DNA of 12,035 nt from Methanomethylovorans sp. (GTDB taxonomy: Archaea > Halobacteriota > Methanosarcinia > Methanosarcinales > Methanosarcinaceae). This document shows, one piece after another, positions 2,816 through 12,035 of the stretch. The translations under genes and the position numbers were made by a program. The stretch spans positions 1 to 12,035 of the forward strand of contig JAHFZE010000115.1 of assembly GCA_020854785.1 (NCBI GenBank). Direction: 5' to 3'. The notes under the pieces were generated by a model. That model was not told the DNA's origin and ran no database searches. It saw only the letters and a program-made list of their open reading frames with translations. The number at the start of each line of letters is the position of its first letter. The first letter of the stretch is position 1.

Positions 2816-3751
2816 ATGGAACAAAAAGGGATCATCACTGGTTATTATAGCAGCGGAACAGAGGTTACAGGTGAAAGTGAGGATTGTATGGAAAGAAATG
2901 ATGTTTTCATCGAAACTGCTGTGAAGCTTGCCGAAGGACTTGGATCTTCCGCTATAATCCTGGCTGGTGATTTCTGTTTTGAAGATGTCATTACAGATGT
3001 TCCCATATATCATGCTTTTACTGATCAGAAGGAACTGATCGATCAACTTATATTCTCTAACGGTAAAAAGGAAGTTCGTACATTCACCGACAAGATGATA
3101 GATAAATCTTATCATAAGTTGGAAGAGCTGGAAAAGATATCTGCTATCGAACATGTTCTGGGGAACATTTCGGAAGGAACGGTTGTCGGGATCGTGGGCA
3201 GCATAGATTCTTGCGCCATCGTGGTTCACAACCTGGAAGAAAACGACATGGTAAAAAAGATACGGGAATGTGAAGAACGTGTATCGCCTGAAGTTGTACG
3301 TGCTGTTTTGAACATTTGTTTCGATATTGCCACAAAAGGACGTGAAGGCAAAAAAATGGGTACAGCATTGATCGTAGGTGATGTAGATGAGGTCATGCTG
3401 AGATCACATCCTCTTATCATCAACCCATATCTGGGACAAACACCCGAGGACAGTAATATCCTTGAAGAGCACAACTGGGAATCAGTGAAGGAACTTGCAC
3501 AACTGGACGGAGTATTTGTGATCTCGGAAGAGGGAAAGATACATGCAGCAGGAAGATATCTCGATGTGGATGCAAGAGACATCAACATTGATAAGGGCCT
3601 TGGGGGAAGACATGTATCAGCTGCAGCCATCACAAGAGATACTGTCGCTGTGGCTTTCATTGTATCAGAATCTGGTGGCGTGGTTAGAATATACATAGAT
3701 GGAAAAGAATTGATCTGCATCGATAAGCCACAAAGGTGTATCCCTGCATAA
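2816..3751 (+). CDS. dacZ: Diadenylate cyclase DacZ (c-di-AMP synthase)
   Basis: DacZ is the archaeal enzyme that condenses two ATP into cyclic di-AMP, a signal tied to osmotic and potassium balance. The 311-aa protein has an N-terminal domain resembling the pyruvate kinase C-terminal fold (about 1-110, including SSAIILAGDF and PIYHAFTDQKELIDQL) and a C-terminal DisA_N/DAC domain (about 170-300). In the latter, LDGVFVISEEGKIHAAGRYL (230-249) matches the DGA metal/ATP region and GGRHVSAAAITRD (263-275) matches the GTRHRAA region. Two positions differ from the bacterial consensus: DGA reads DGV (231-233) and RHR reads RHV (265-267). There are no membrane segments, so the protein is cytoplasmic. 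A strong SD (GAGGGGAC) sets the start. It is a single gene between divergent thpR and convergent aceP, closed by a stem-loop terminator. Confidence 0.9.
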   Translation: MEQKGIITGYYSSGTEVTGESEDCMERNDVFIETAVKLAEGLGSSAIILAGDFCFEDVITDVPIYHAFTDQKELIDQLIFSNGKKEVRTFTDKMIDKSYHKLEELEKISAIEHVLGNISEGTVVGIVGSIDSCAIVVHNLEENDMVKKIRECEERVSPEVVRAVLNICFDIATKGREGKKMGTALIVGDVDEVMLRSHPLIINPYLGQTPEDSNILEEHNWESVKELAQLDGVFVISEEGKIHAAGRYLDVDARDINIDKGLGGRHVSAAAITRDTVAVAFIVSESGGVVRIYIDGKELICIDKPQRCIPA

Positions 3752-8091: not shown

Positions 8092-9258
8092 ATGAACGAA
8101 AGAACACGCAATTTTCTTGTGAGCAGGTTCCAGGCATACTACTCACAAGCTGAGATACACCTTCCTCCTGAGCATATATCCCGCGAGTGGGGATTCATTC
8201 CTTTCAGCGACAGCTCCGAGACCTTTATGAAAAGGCACATCGCTTTCGGCTCGGAAGGGGAGATCAAGGACTATCTGAAAGGAATAGCCCCTGCGCATGC
8301 TTATTATTCAGTTGCTTACTATGAGTATCCCAGCGCACCGAAGATGAAAGAGAAGAACTGGCAAAAGGCAGATCTGATCTTTGATATAGATTCCGACCAT
8401 CTTCCGGGGAAGATCAATTCTTATGCCGAAATGCTCGAAAAAGGAAAAAGAGAGACCTTTAAGCTTATGGAATTCCTGCTCGATGACTTTGGATTTGATG
8501 AAAAGGATGTACATATCGTCTTCTCCGGAGGGAGAGGGTATCACTGTCATATAACAGATCCTTCTGTATTGCATCTGGAAAGCCCTGAAAGACGTGAAAT
8601 AGTTGATTATGTCAGTGCAAAAGGAATGGACCTTGAGAGAATACTTGATACAAAAGAAGTAAGCGGGGACGCCGGAAGAGATAGTGCACAGATGCTGGTA
8701 TTTCCTTCGGAAGATGAGGGTGGGTGGAATGGAAGGATCAATAGATATTTCATTGCTTTCTTGGAAGAAATAACTGCCAGAGATGATGCCGAGGATATCC
8801 TGAGGGGATTCAAAGGAGTGGGAGAGAAAACAGCCCGACAGATCAGAGAAGTATTCAGGAACCAATCACAGGTCGAAGTACTAAAAAAAGGAAACATCGA
8901 CGTTTTGTCCGGGGTGAACAAAAAAGTGATCAATGCCCTGATAGAAGAAGGTATAAGGAAAATGTCAGCGGTCGTTGATGAACCTGTTACAGCCGACATC
9001 AAGCGTTTGATACGTCTTCCCGGATCTTTACATGGCGGTTCCGGACTGAAGGTCATGTCCTTAACGATCGATGAGCTTGAAACGTTCGAACCTTTAAGAG
9101 ATGCGGTGGTCTTCGATGATAGATCGGTCAGGTTAAAAGTTATAAAGCCTTTTGCAGTGCAAATGAAAGGGAAGGATATCGAGGTGGAACCGGGTGAGCA
9201 GGAGCTTCCTGAGTATGTGGCAGTACACCTAATATGCAGAGGTGTGGCAGAGGTATGA
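8092..9258 (+). CDS. priS: DNA primase small (catalytic) subunit PriS
   Basis: PriS, with PriL, makes the RNA/DNA primers for archaeal replication. The 388-aa protein has the archaeo-eukaryotic primase core: DLIFDIDSDH (94-103) with catalytic Asp98 and Asp100, FSGGRGYHCH (144-153), and RLPGSLHGGSGL (308-319), which holds the nucleotide-binding His and Arg region. Between these, roughly 236-290, is an insert with helix-hairpin-helix character: FKGVGEKTARQI (240-251) and LSGVNKKVINALI (272-284). No SD is visible and the ATG is probably used leaderless. The C-terminal codons overlap, by 4 nt (ATGA), the start of a decayed gins copy, the arrangement expected of an original priS-gins operon. An imperfect copy of the gene's 3' end lies about 2.4 kb downstream, next to the intact gins. 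The protein itself looks complete and functional. Confidence 0.96.
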   Translation: MNERTRNFLVSRFQAYYSQAEIHLPPEHISREWGFIPFSDSSETFMKRHIAFGSEGEIKDYLKGIAPAHAYYSVAYYEYPSAPKMKEKNWQKADLIFDIDSDHLPGKINSYAEMLEKGKRETFKLMEFLLDDFGFDEKDVHIVFSGGRGYHCHITDPSVLHLESPERREIVDYVSAKGMDLERILDTKEVSGDAGRDSAQMLVFPSEDEGGWNGRINRYFIAFLEEITARDDAEDILRGFKGVGEKTARQIREVFRNQSQVEVLKKGNIDVLSGVNKKVINALIEEGIRKMSAVVDEPVTADIKRLIRLPGSLHGGSGLKVMSLTIDELETFEPLRDAVVFDDRSVRLKVIKPFAVQMKGKDIEVEPGEQELPEYVAVHLICRGVAEV

Positions 9259-9345
9259 TTGTTGAAACATATGCTGTGAGCTGTTCTTACCTTAAAGTTT
9301 TGGTTCCAGATTTCTGTAAGAGCGTAGCAAGCTCCATAAGCAGCT
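9255..9345 (+). pseudogene. Decayed 5' fragment of gins behind priS
   Basis: Starting at the ATG that overlaps the priS stop, a 30-codon frame ends at a TGA (9345). Aligned without gaps, 9276-9341 matches 11748-11813 of the intact gins at about 43 of 66 bases by my eye count, in the same reading frame. At protein level VPDFCKSVASSI corresponds to SSDFFESVAKYI, with about 10 of 22 residues identical over the longer stretch. Before that block about 15 nt are missing relative to gins. Weaker resemblance may continue to about 9450. The frame stops too early to make a GINS protein, so this is a relic. Confidence 0.75.
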
Positions 9346-9567
9346 GATTTCATAATGTCAGGCCGGGAGATGCACAACTTATGAGAACAAAACGAAAAGA
9401 CAATGGACAACGCTGGCTACCATGAATATAGACTTAACGAACTGACTTTGTGTTTTTCATAAACTTGTGTATGAAAGACGACTTTCCGGGACAAAGTGGG
9501 AGATAGAATAGCATAAAAAGTAAATAGACATATCTATACATCAATCTACAAGTGTAAAGGTGACAAA
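9346..9567 (+). promoter_or_regulatory. Spacer and hcp promoter
   Basis: The first half may be further decayed gins sequence: CGCTGGCTACCATGAATAT near 9411 resembles the stretch around the intact gene's codons 58-66, but this is uncertain. The second half holds the hcp promoter: a TATA-like CATAAAAAG (9512-9520) predicts a start near 9542, giving a leader of about 26 nt that contains the strong SD AAAGGTGAC (9556-9564). No operator is recognised; the small palindrome AGACATATCT (9526-9535) lies just after the TATA box. Confidence 0.45.
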
Positions 9568-11187
9568 ATGTTCTGCTACCAGTGTGAAGAAACAATGAAT
9601 GGGGAGGGCTGCACAAATAACGGGATGTGCGGTAAGAAAGGGGAAATCGCAGACCTTCAGGACGATCTCATCTATGTGCTTAAGAGCATTGCATTCTACA
9701 ACCAGAAAGCAAGAGAAGCAGGTATTTCTCAGAAGAGCACTGATGAGTTTATGCTCGATGCACTGTTCTCAACCATAACGAATACAGATTTCAGAGCGAG
9801 CGGAATTCAGAACCGCATCGACAGAGGGCTCAAACTCCAGAGTGAGATCAGGCAAAAACTCCTGGATAACAATATGCTTGATGAGAAAGATCTGCCCGAG
9901 ATCGCAACTTTGAACCCGGAGAACCTCAAGGACAGGAATACCAGTATACTTGCAACAGAGAACGAAGATATCCGATCATTGAGAGAATTGTTGATCTATG
10001 GTCTCAAAGGAATTGCAGCATATGCACATCACGCTATGGTGCTTGGACATAATAACAAAAAGATCAATTCATTTATAGAAGAAGCTCTTGTGGCAACCAC
10101 GGATGATAGCCTGACTGATAAGAAGCTTATCTCACTGGTCCTAAAATGTGGAGAGAAAGGTTTTGACGTAATGGCCGAACTTGACATGGCAAATACCACC
10201 ACTTTCGGAAACCCGGAACCTACTTTGGTCAATATTGGAACAAGAGACAACCCTGGTATCCTCATCAGTGGACATGACCTGAATGACCTGAAACAACTGT
10301 TGGACCAAACACAAGGAATGGGTGTAGATGTATATACCCATGGGGAGATGCTGCCTGCAAATTCATATCCTGAATTTAAGAAGCACGAACACCTTATCGG
10401 CAACTATGGAGGATCGTGGTGGCGCCAGCAACAGGAATTTGAGAGTTTCAATGGACCGATATTACTGACCACCAATTGCATAGTTCCTCCAAGGAAGACA
10501 TATATTGACAGGTTATATACCACAGGTCCCGTAGGTTATGATGGTGTCACACACATTGTGGCTGAGGATGATAAGAAAGACTTCTCGGCCATGATCGAGC
10601 AGGCAAAGCAGTGCAAACCTCCGGTACAACTGGAAGGAGGTACCATCATGGCAGGTTTTGCTTATAATTCGGTATTATCTAACGCAGATCAGATCGTTAA
10701 TGCCGTCAAAGCGGGCAAGATCAAGAAGTTTATCGTTATGGCAGGATGCGACGGGCGACATAAGGAGAGGCAGTATTATACGGATTTTGCAGAAGCGCTT
10801 TCAAAAGACACTGTAATACTTACTGCAGGATGTGCAAAATATCGCTATAACAAACTTGATCTTGGAGACATTGACGGGATACCAAGAGTATTGGATGCAG
10901 GACAGTGTAACGATTCATTTTCATTGATCGTCATTGCACAAGGACTCATGTCCAGACTTGGATTTACCGATGTTAACGAAGCGCCGATCTCGTACAACAT
11001 CGCATGGTATGAACAAAAGGCAGTACTTGTATTGCTTACCCTACTGAGGCTTGAAATACGTAACATCACCCTTGGTCCAAAGCTACCGGCATTTATTTCA
11101 CCAAATGTCCTCAAAGTCCTGGTGGAGAAGTTCAATATAACGCCGAACAGCACTATAGAAGCAGATATGGAGAGACTATTGAAATAG
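9568..11187 (+). CDS. hcp: Hybrid-cluster protein (hydroxylamine reductase / NO reductase)
   Basis: Hcp carries one cubane cluster and one unusual Fe-S-O hybrid cluster. It reduces hydroxylamine in vitro and acts as an NO reductase in nitrosative stress in E. coli. The 539-aa length fits the full-length class I form. The N-terminal cubane ligands are C3, C6, C15 and C21 (CX2CX8CX5C). All hybrid-cluster ligands are visible: H236 (SGHDL), E260 (THGEM), C304 (TTNCIVPP), C394 (MAGCDGRH, the persulfide Cys), C422 (TAGCAKYR), C447 (AGQCNDS), E482 and K484 (WYEQKAV). There is no signal peptide, so it acts in the cytoplasm. A strong SD AAAGGTGAC sets the start. No hcr-type reductase gene lies beside it. 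It sits between two partial copies of the priS-gins junction, so it may have arrived or been moved with that duplication. In methanogens it probably protects against NO or oxidised nitrogen. Confidence 0.96.
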
Positions 11188-11534
11188 ACACTTAGATGCA
11201 GAGAGGAGCGTATATCAAAGAAGTTTCAAATGAGGTGTTTCGTATCCCTTCCGATCTTTCTTCCTATTGCTGCGATGGTCGATACAAATTGTCCAGCACC
11301 TTAAATGAAAACATTCATCTTGGTCAATACTTTAGCGGAAACTATAGCTCATAGTGATTGGCAGATCGCTGCCCACCTGAAGAAAAGCATACATTTCATG
11401 GAATAATCAATACTGATGAACCATTGCAATTAACCTGCCACAAAATGTACAACTGGAGAAAAAGGGGATATCATCTTTCATCAAAACAACAAAGGTTTAA
11501 AGGTTGAAGGAATGTTTATACATCCCTGCAGGCC
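11188..11534. other. Intergenic stretch after hcp without a recognised gene
   Basis: Two short open frames occur on the plus strand: 11196-11354 (52 aa, MQRGAYIKEVSNEVFRIPSD and on, eight nt after the hcp stop) and 11305-11406 (33 aa, beginning MKTFILVNTL). Neither has an SD and I recognise neither. Their composition is protein-like enough to suggest relics of coding DNA. Because the next segment is a decayed 3' end of priS, this stretch may be its more heavily decayed upstream part, but I could not align it convincingly. No clear terminator for hcp is seen. Confidence 0.35.
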
Positions 11535-11719
11535 CATCTTAAGGATGCATCATTGATCTTTAAAAGTTTAAAGGCAAAATACCATGGGAAATAAGTTTTC
11601 AAGACTGGATATTCGTAAAAGTTCCCTGAAAGAACAAGATTTAAGTGGAACAAGAGAAAGAATTAATGCCCGATATGGCGGTACACCTGACGTGTAGAGG
11701 TGTGGCAGAATATGAATAG
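11535..11719 (+). pseudogene. Decayed 3' fragment of priS in front of gins
   Basis: The last part is a clear copy of the priS C-terminus: 11681-11709 matches 9223-9251 at 25 of 29 bases, including 14 identical bases in a row (AGAGGTGTGGCAGA at 11696-11709 and 9238-9251). Translated, MAVHLTCRGVAE corresponds to VAVHLICRGVAE of PriS. Further upstream the resemblance continues with frameshifts: FSRLDIRKSS against VRLKVIKPF, and IFKSLKA against TFEPLRDA. An in-frame TAA (11642-11644) and small deletions show it is not expressed as protein. It ends at TAG 11717-11719, overlapping the gins start, and supplies the SD-like GAGGTG (11697-11702) for gins. Confidence 0.75.
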
Positions 11720-12035
11720 AACAGAATTGAAAGATATCCTGCGCAGCGAGAGCAGTTCTTCCCTTAGACCCTTAAGTTCCGATTTCTTCGAGAGTGTAGC
11801 TAAATACATCCGGGAACTGGAAGATGAGATCAGACTGATCAATAATCCCAGATCTGTTGAATCCAGAATGCTGGAAGATGAACTGCAGAGCGCTATCACT
11901 GATATCGAAGTAATATTCCTGCGCAGGATAAAGAAGATCACTACAAGGGCAACTTCAAACGCATTTTCAAAAAAATCACCGAATCAGGATATGGACAAAC
12001 TGTTGCCTGCTGAAAGGAAGATATATGACTCTGTA
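11712..12035 (+). CDS. gins51: GINS replication complex subunit (Gins51/15 type), N-terminal part, runs off right edge
   Basis: The frame is open for 108 codons from the ATG at 11712 to the window end. The archaeal GINS complex joins MCM helicase and the RecJ-like GAN/Cdc45 protein at the fork, and its genes are commonly next to priS or PCNA. The visible part is the alpha-helical A domain: a start MNRTELKDILRSE, a Ser-rich link, then LSSDFFESVAKYIRELEDEI (21-40), the block typical of the GINS51 N-terminus, followed by MLEDELQSAITDIEVIFLRRIKKI with the conserved helix that contains the RR/KI signature. The B domain, if present, is off the edge. GAGGTG (11697-11702) lies 9 nt before the ATG. 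In place of functional priS, only a decayed priS end stands upstream, so expression must come from hcp readthrough or a local promoter. Confidence 0.8.
   Translation, partial: MNRTELKDILRSESSSSLRPLSSDFFESVAKYIRELEDEIRLINNPRSVESRMLEDELQSAITDIEVIFLRRIKKITTRATSNAFSKKSPNQDMDKLLPAERKIYDSV

Follow-up and report, generated by a model that had tools for sequence, protein, structure and literature searches.

Single-crossover (Campbell-type) integration leaves an insert between direct repeats of its target, with both outer genes complete. The locus described here, from an archaeon of the genus Methanomethylovorans, has the same repeats and complete outer genes, whereas no circle or carrier was found in the plasmid records and viral contigs searched and the route is a candidate one. 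In the Methanosarcinales, priS, the gene for the small subunit of DNA primase, adjoins Gins15, as already in print for the PCNA-PriS-Gins15 / L44E-S27E-aIF2alpha-Nop10 cluster (PMC2643942). Our locus belongs to the same priS-gins adjacency, but hcp, the gene for the hybrid cluster protein, lies between the two genes here and in a second genome of the genus, a split that the available part of that paper does not describe. Duplication and deletion have been proposed for this very junction: the C-terminal domain of PriS is suggested to have arisen when the neighboring gins51 was duplicated in tandem (PMC2861644). That event would be ancient and made a protein domain, whereas the present one is recent by comparison, spans the junction, and yields no new protein. 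Translation was coupled in 13 of 14 tested overlapping gene pairs from archaea and bacteria (PMC6728339); the priS-gins overlap of the family is of that kind, and by analogy its translation might be coupled as well. In Streptococcus pneumoniae merodiploids formed by transformation, a tandem duplication likewise keeps an essential gene intact beside a changed copy, but those duplications cover ~100–900 kb and start from a repeat, whereas the copy here is ~250 bp (PMC3784515). Homology-facilitated illegitimate recombination also joins foreign DNA by homology at one end (PMC3240628), but the second, illegitimate joint of that process would be hypothetical at our locus. Our literature searches, as far as their listings and the papers cited here go, turned up no description of such a scar.

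The window, the whole 12,035-nucleotide stretch that was analyzed, is contig C319 of a Methanomethylovorans assembly that is 76.5% complete and consists of 327 contigs. We set it beside five genomes of the same genus: G001 (linked to the record Methanomethylovorans sp. PtaU1.Bin093), G002 (EBM-47), G003 (UBA470), G004 (MAG-12), and G005, which is presumably Methanomethylovorans hollandica. The G005 genome amounts to 2.7 Mb in two contigs, with the hcp-split locus on the 2.43 Mb contig; a size of 2.71 Mbp has been given for M. hollandica (PMC13193254). priS and gins were also sought in 111 genomes of the family, the window's own genome included.

In the window, an intact priS is followed by a 5′ fragment of gins, hcp, a 3′ fragment of priS, and an intact gins (Table 1). 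A first-pass annotation had proposed this gene order and a duplicated priS-gins junction, and both were confirmed, the spacers of the window scoring above shuffled controls. priS is 93% identical to its counterpart in G005, and gins is 95% identical over residues 1–108. Apart from hcp, the open-frame list of the window contains no forward frame of at least 80 aa between priS and gins.

Table 1. Features of the priS-gins locus in the window
Feature	Position	Strand	Basis
priS, intact DNA primase small subunit	8092..9258	+	open frame of 388 aa; Pfam DNA_primase_S 2.3e-25
Left copy, degraded 5′ gins fragment	9255..9363, end approximate	+	shuffles, anchored extension, three-species alignment
hcp and upstream region, stretch conserved between window and G005	9483..11208	+	89.4% over 1731 bp
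hcp, hybrid cluster protein, intact, 539 aa	9568..11187	+	Pfam Prismane 8.7e-161; genus clade
Degraded DUF2278 gene tail (lamin-tail domain)	11266..11563, borders approximate	+	tblastn, three DUF2278 proteins
Right copy, 3′ priS fragment overlapping gins start	11567..11719, left border approximate	+	shuffles, anchored extension, alignments
AGAGGTG, proposed gins ribosome-binding site within priS fragment	11696..11702	+	putative role
gins (Gins51/Gins15), intact as far as seen	11712..12035	+	contig ends inside gene

A self-search of the window's genome returned a second copy of the junction, 11673–11800 against 9215–9328 (68% identity, E 1.9e-4). We then compared local alignments under strict gap costs with 2000 dinucleotide shuffles per comparison. 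No shuffle scored as high as the left spacer of the window against its own gins or that of G003 (0/2000 each), and for the right spacer 6/2000 did so against its own priS and 0/2000 against that of G003. The outcome that the first-pass annotation had named as fatal to the duplication, relic alignments no better than shuffled sequence, thus did not occur for the window spacers (0–6 of 2000). The left spacer was significant in G005 (2/2000 shuffles as high) and the right one weak (94/2000), whereas the left spacer of G001 was not significant alone (1358/2000) and the right one gave 44/2000. In the alignment with relatives that the same annotation had suggested, both fragments aligned in G005 and G001, where their recognition depends chiefly on where they lie and on how they align with the window. 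A resemblance by chance, or a chimeric contig in the metagenome assembly, might be suspected because the window comes from so incomplete and fragmented an assembly. This reading is already refuted because G005 has the same arrangement on its 2.43 Mb contig; G001 also has both fragments, the shuffle controls speak against chance, and the probability that we leave to it is negligible.

The borders of the fragments, ~9255–9363 and ~11567–11719, are best estimates from the alignments. Once its last 43 bases were removed, the right spacer gave no priS match in a free search (434/2000 shuffles as high), and neither did 11564–11668 alone (308/2000 against G003, 723/2000 against the window's own priS). 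The priS match stretches to ~11567–11587 only if the alignment is anchored in register, in which case 0/500 shuffles scored as high against G003, G002, and G005, 1/500 against G001, and 21/500 against its own priS. Extension of the gins fragment upstream of 9316 was matched by 0/500 shuffles against both G003 and the window's own gins. Its continuation to ~9363 is less sure (5, 16, 11, and 32 of 500 against G003, own, G002, and G005), and for the gins fragment of G005 no significant extension was obtained beyond that position (130 and 172 of 500 shuffles). By the alignment, shuffle, and anchored-extension tests, direct repeats of the target flank the insert. Two other assignments were tried and rejected. 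The stretch 11485–11610 was considered as more priS, and it matches the end of proteins of 340–360 aa in relatives, a full-length one of which has the DUF2278 and lamin-tail domains. The stretch 11584–11682 was considered as the start of a third gene, and a search of 99 genomes with a 33-aa query matched the window alone; the next best match had an E of 0.37, and the alignment there fits the priS fragment.

Across the family, priS and gins occur together on one contig and strand in 105 of 111 genomes; four of the other six have neither gene and two have one. The spacing is 2, overlapping and fixed, in 98 of the 105, and the ancestral state is this overlapping priS-gins pair at fixed spacing. 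A large gap is found only in the window (spacing 2457), G005 (2432), and G001 (295). The junction is overlapping and clean in G002, G003, and G004. The window and G005 have the layout of fragment, hcp, and fragment, while G001 has both fragments and a DUF2278 tail between priS and gins, with no hcp there. The first-pass annotation had suggested an old event that separates two replication genes; the scar is indeed common to three species, and it breaks an overlap fixed in nearly the whole family. The spacing is 14, 12 bases above the family norm, in four genomes of genus g11 (G015, G028, G060, and G066), and a priS match in another genome (G126:C18:51128-52144) holds six TGA and one TAA.

At the locus of G001 (L035), compared with G002, G005, and the window, stretches resembling G002 alternate with stretches resembling the window and G005, one part of priS being G002-like and the priS end window-like. 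This mosaic suggests that species of the genus often recombine with one another, or else that the assembly is mixed.

Hybrid cluster proteins include a class I protein of a methanogen, and NO reduction is a role proposed for them in bacteria (PMC10210160). In protein and DNA trees of 18 rows, the hcp genes of the window, G005, G001, and G002 form one clade (support 100/99 for protein, 100/100 for DNA), which splits into window with G005 and G001 with G002; the last two carry hcp at another site. That the four genes form one clade indicates that hcp was already in the genus and changed place; as far as the sequences tell, the gene is relocated within the genus, not acquired, and the gain of hcp that the first-pass annotation had offered as one possibility is not supported. 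The segments on either side of the hcp site of G001 and G002 (L120 and L121, on G001:C54 and G002:C44) are separated from each other in the window's genome, in G005, and in G003, which indicates that this site is itself a rearrangement. A flank duplication at that site was considered and dropped: one 34-base pair with 71% identity was found at one locus and none at the other.

Directly left of the priS fragment lies a degraded gene tail with a lamin-tail domain (DUF2278), which the first-pass annotation had overlooked. The best tblastn E-values for the tail were 7.95e-4 in the window, 2.8e-12 in G005, and 1.1e-16 in G001, in a search of only five short sequences. A full-length relative scores 1.7e-76 for DUF2278 and 1.1e-9 for LTD in Pfam. 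The window tail, of ~100 codons, has a one-base deletion relative to G005 and G001, whereas G001 retains the last 37 codons, 59–73% identical to three relatives. A search with the tail recovered no further clear copy from the six genomes of the genus. Microhomology at the joint between DUF2278 and priS was also considered and rejected, with 10 of 17 letters shared there against 10–11 elsewhere in priS.

We consider it probable that the scar arose by one insertion with a duplicated target, in which a short overlap was copied to both sides. The ancestor would have had the overlapping priS-gins pair of the family, and a segment with hcp and the tail of the DUF2278 gene would have joined into the junction, leaving a target of ~250 bp (~150 bp from the priS end plus ~105 bp from the gins start) on both sides of the insert. 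With the overlap present on either side, priS and gins would both have remained complete. The left copy would have been a useless 5′ stub of gins following the stop of priS, and would have decayed, while at least the last ~45 bp of the right copy would have been kept, carrying the ribosome-binding site and start of gins, which in the ancestor lay within priS. Two routes give the same product and are indistinguishable here: the junction might have crossed over with a DNA circle that bore the same sequence, or a template switch might have occurred while a break was being repaired. Some findings weigh against a single insertion: G001 is without hcp, so that hcp might be a second step, its gins fragment is not significant alone, and the priS match of G005 is weak.

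The first-pass annotation had offered another history, in which priS-gins-hcp was duplicated in tandem and each copy then lost a different gene, which would end in the same gene order. This scheme places an hcp copy downstream of gins; the window ends inside gins, and the evidence on that side comes from the relatives. To the right of gins, G005 runs collinear with G001, G002, G003, and G004 over 2.8–4.7 kb, and no second hcp or remnant was found there in any of these five genomes; moreover, the priS fragment is bordered by the DUF2278 tail and not by more priS. Behind the gins fragment, 9364–9482 matched no assigned feature. The lack of a second hcp and the DUF2278 neighbor argue that the fragments are the ends of a short target rather than whole genes lost reciprocally, and we regard reciprocal loss as very improbable.

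The insertion might instead have taken two steps, a short local tandem duplication of the overlap (priS-gins'-'priS-gins) and then the arrival of hcp and the DUF2278 piece between the copies, perhaps separately. G001, which keeps both fragments and the tail without hcp, is what such a history would leave; hcp is native to the genus and occurs at another site too; and in the four relatives compared for this (G009, G016, G022, and G033) a distance of >500 kb on the contig coordinates separates hcp from the DUF2278 match. However, a deletion removing hcp also explains G001, given its shortened tail, and the bare duplication without an insert is absent from the 105 genomes with both genes. We think this history unlikely, though it deserves more weight than the other alternatives.

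As a route, Campbell-type integration is a form of the single insertion that we favor; as a gain of hcp on a circle from another species, it is a different claim. A single crossover with a circle holding the 3′ end of priS and the 5′ end of gins gives exactly this layout, but hcp is native to the genus and the fragments point to no separable donor. The gins fragment of the window shares 63–69 of 109 letters with all six genus members against 40–53 of 109 with eight outgroup sequences, and that of G005 61–70 of 120 against 38–49. The priS fragment of the window shares 67–74 of 125 letters with the genus against 52–64 of 119–125 with outgroups, whereas the ranges overlap for G005 (37–44 of 76 against 39–48 of 76–77) and G001 (38–45 of 75 against 38–49 of 75–76). 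The gins fragments thus appear to belong to the genus, the priS parts are less clear, and no donor can be named from these counts. G003 was considered as the donor and rejected, since the letters shared with it are found partly in outgroups too and can be ancestral, and the counts do not separate it. Nor was a carrier found: the plasmid search gave 46 records with relatives of hcp, each below 60% identity and the ten listed all bacterial, at the DNA level 10 plasmid records were hit, all of them within hcp, and two scans of viral contigs gave no relative. We judge an import of hcp from another species very improbable. Transposons duplicate 2–14 bp of their target on insertion, and the target repeat of ~250 bp is far too long for that; among forward frames of at least 80 aa between priS and gins, there was no candidate for a transposase besides hcp, and a transposon seems an improbable source of the scar.

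Under the single insertion, the two copies would have had different fates, and the right copy is better preserved than the left in all three pairs (133/177 against 55/105 for window and G005, 128/176 against 24/46 for window and G001, and 162/178 against 33/65 for G005 and G001). The identity at fourfold sites in up to six genes is 0.73, 0.62, and 0.61 for the same pairs, and inside gins it is 31/37, 26/37, and 26/38; in the three genes after gins, it is 0.75–0.79 between G005 and G001. The right block is clearly above the neutral level for G005 and G001, and above it for window and G001 against the six-gene yardstick. For window and G005, it is not above the fourfold level (0.75 against 0.73, P 0.29), and the fourfold identity within gins is higher still, which counts against a leader role. 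A recent import into the mosaic G001 may add to its high right-block value. The conservation test for a leader role of the priS fragment is therefore mixed. The motif AGAGGTG, which precedes the gins start by nine bases, is intact and identical in the fragments of the window, G005, and G001, and AGAGG occurs inside priS at the same place in the intact junctions of the genus. From its identity in the three fragments, we infer that the motif serves gins as ribosome-binding site, and this is the probable reason why the priS fragment was kept.

Where the start signals of the downstream gene are embedded in the upstream one, parting the two would require an insertion that duplicates their overlap. 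We tentatively suggest as a rule, and hold it to be possible rather than likely, that overlapping pairs are parted in this way alone, the partial copy of the upstream gene being retained as a leader for the downstream one. If true, gins would now have its promoter and leader in the priS fragment together with the DUF2278 tail. The scar itself is well supported, and its importance is probably local. Overlapping genes are seldom seen coming apart, and a single genus here shows the undisturbed junction, the complete scar, and a scar that has lost part of its length. The locus makes it possible to test how an essential and probably coupled pair can be split without loss of either gene, and how a gene fragment can be kept for a signal and not for a protein; annotators might bear in mind that a fragment of this sort may be a leader. 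Upstream of priS, the window also encodes a diadenylate cyclase (2816–3751, + strand; Pfam DacZ_A and DAC), with LigT-like, YaaH-like, pelota-like (eRF1 domains), and NFACT genes nearby.
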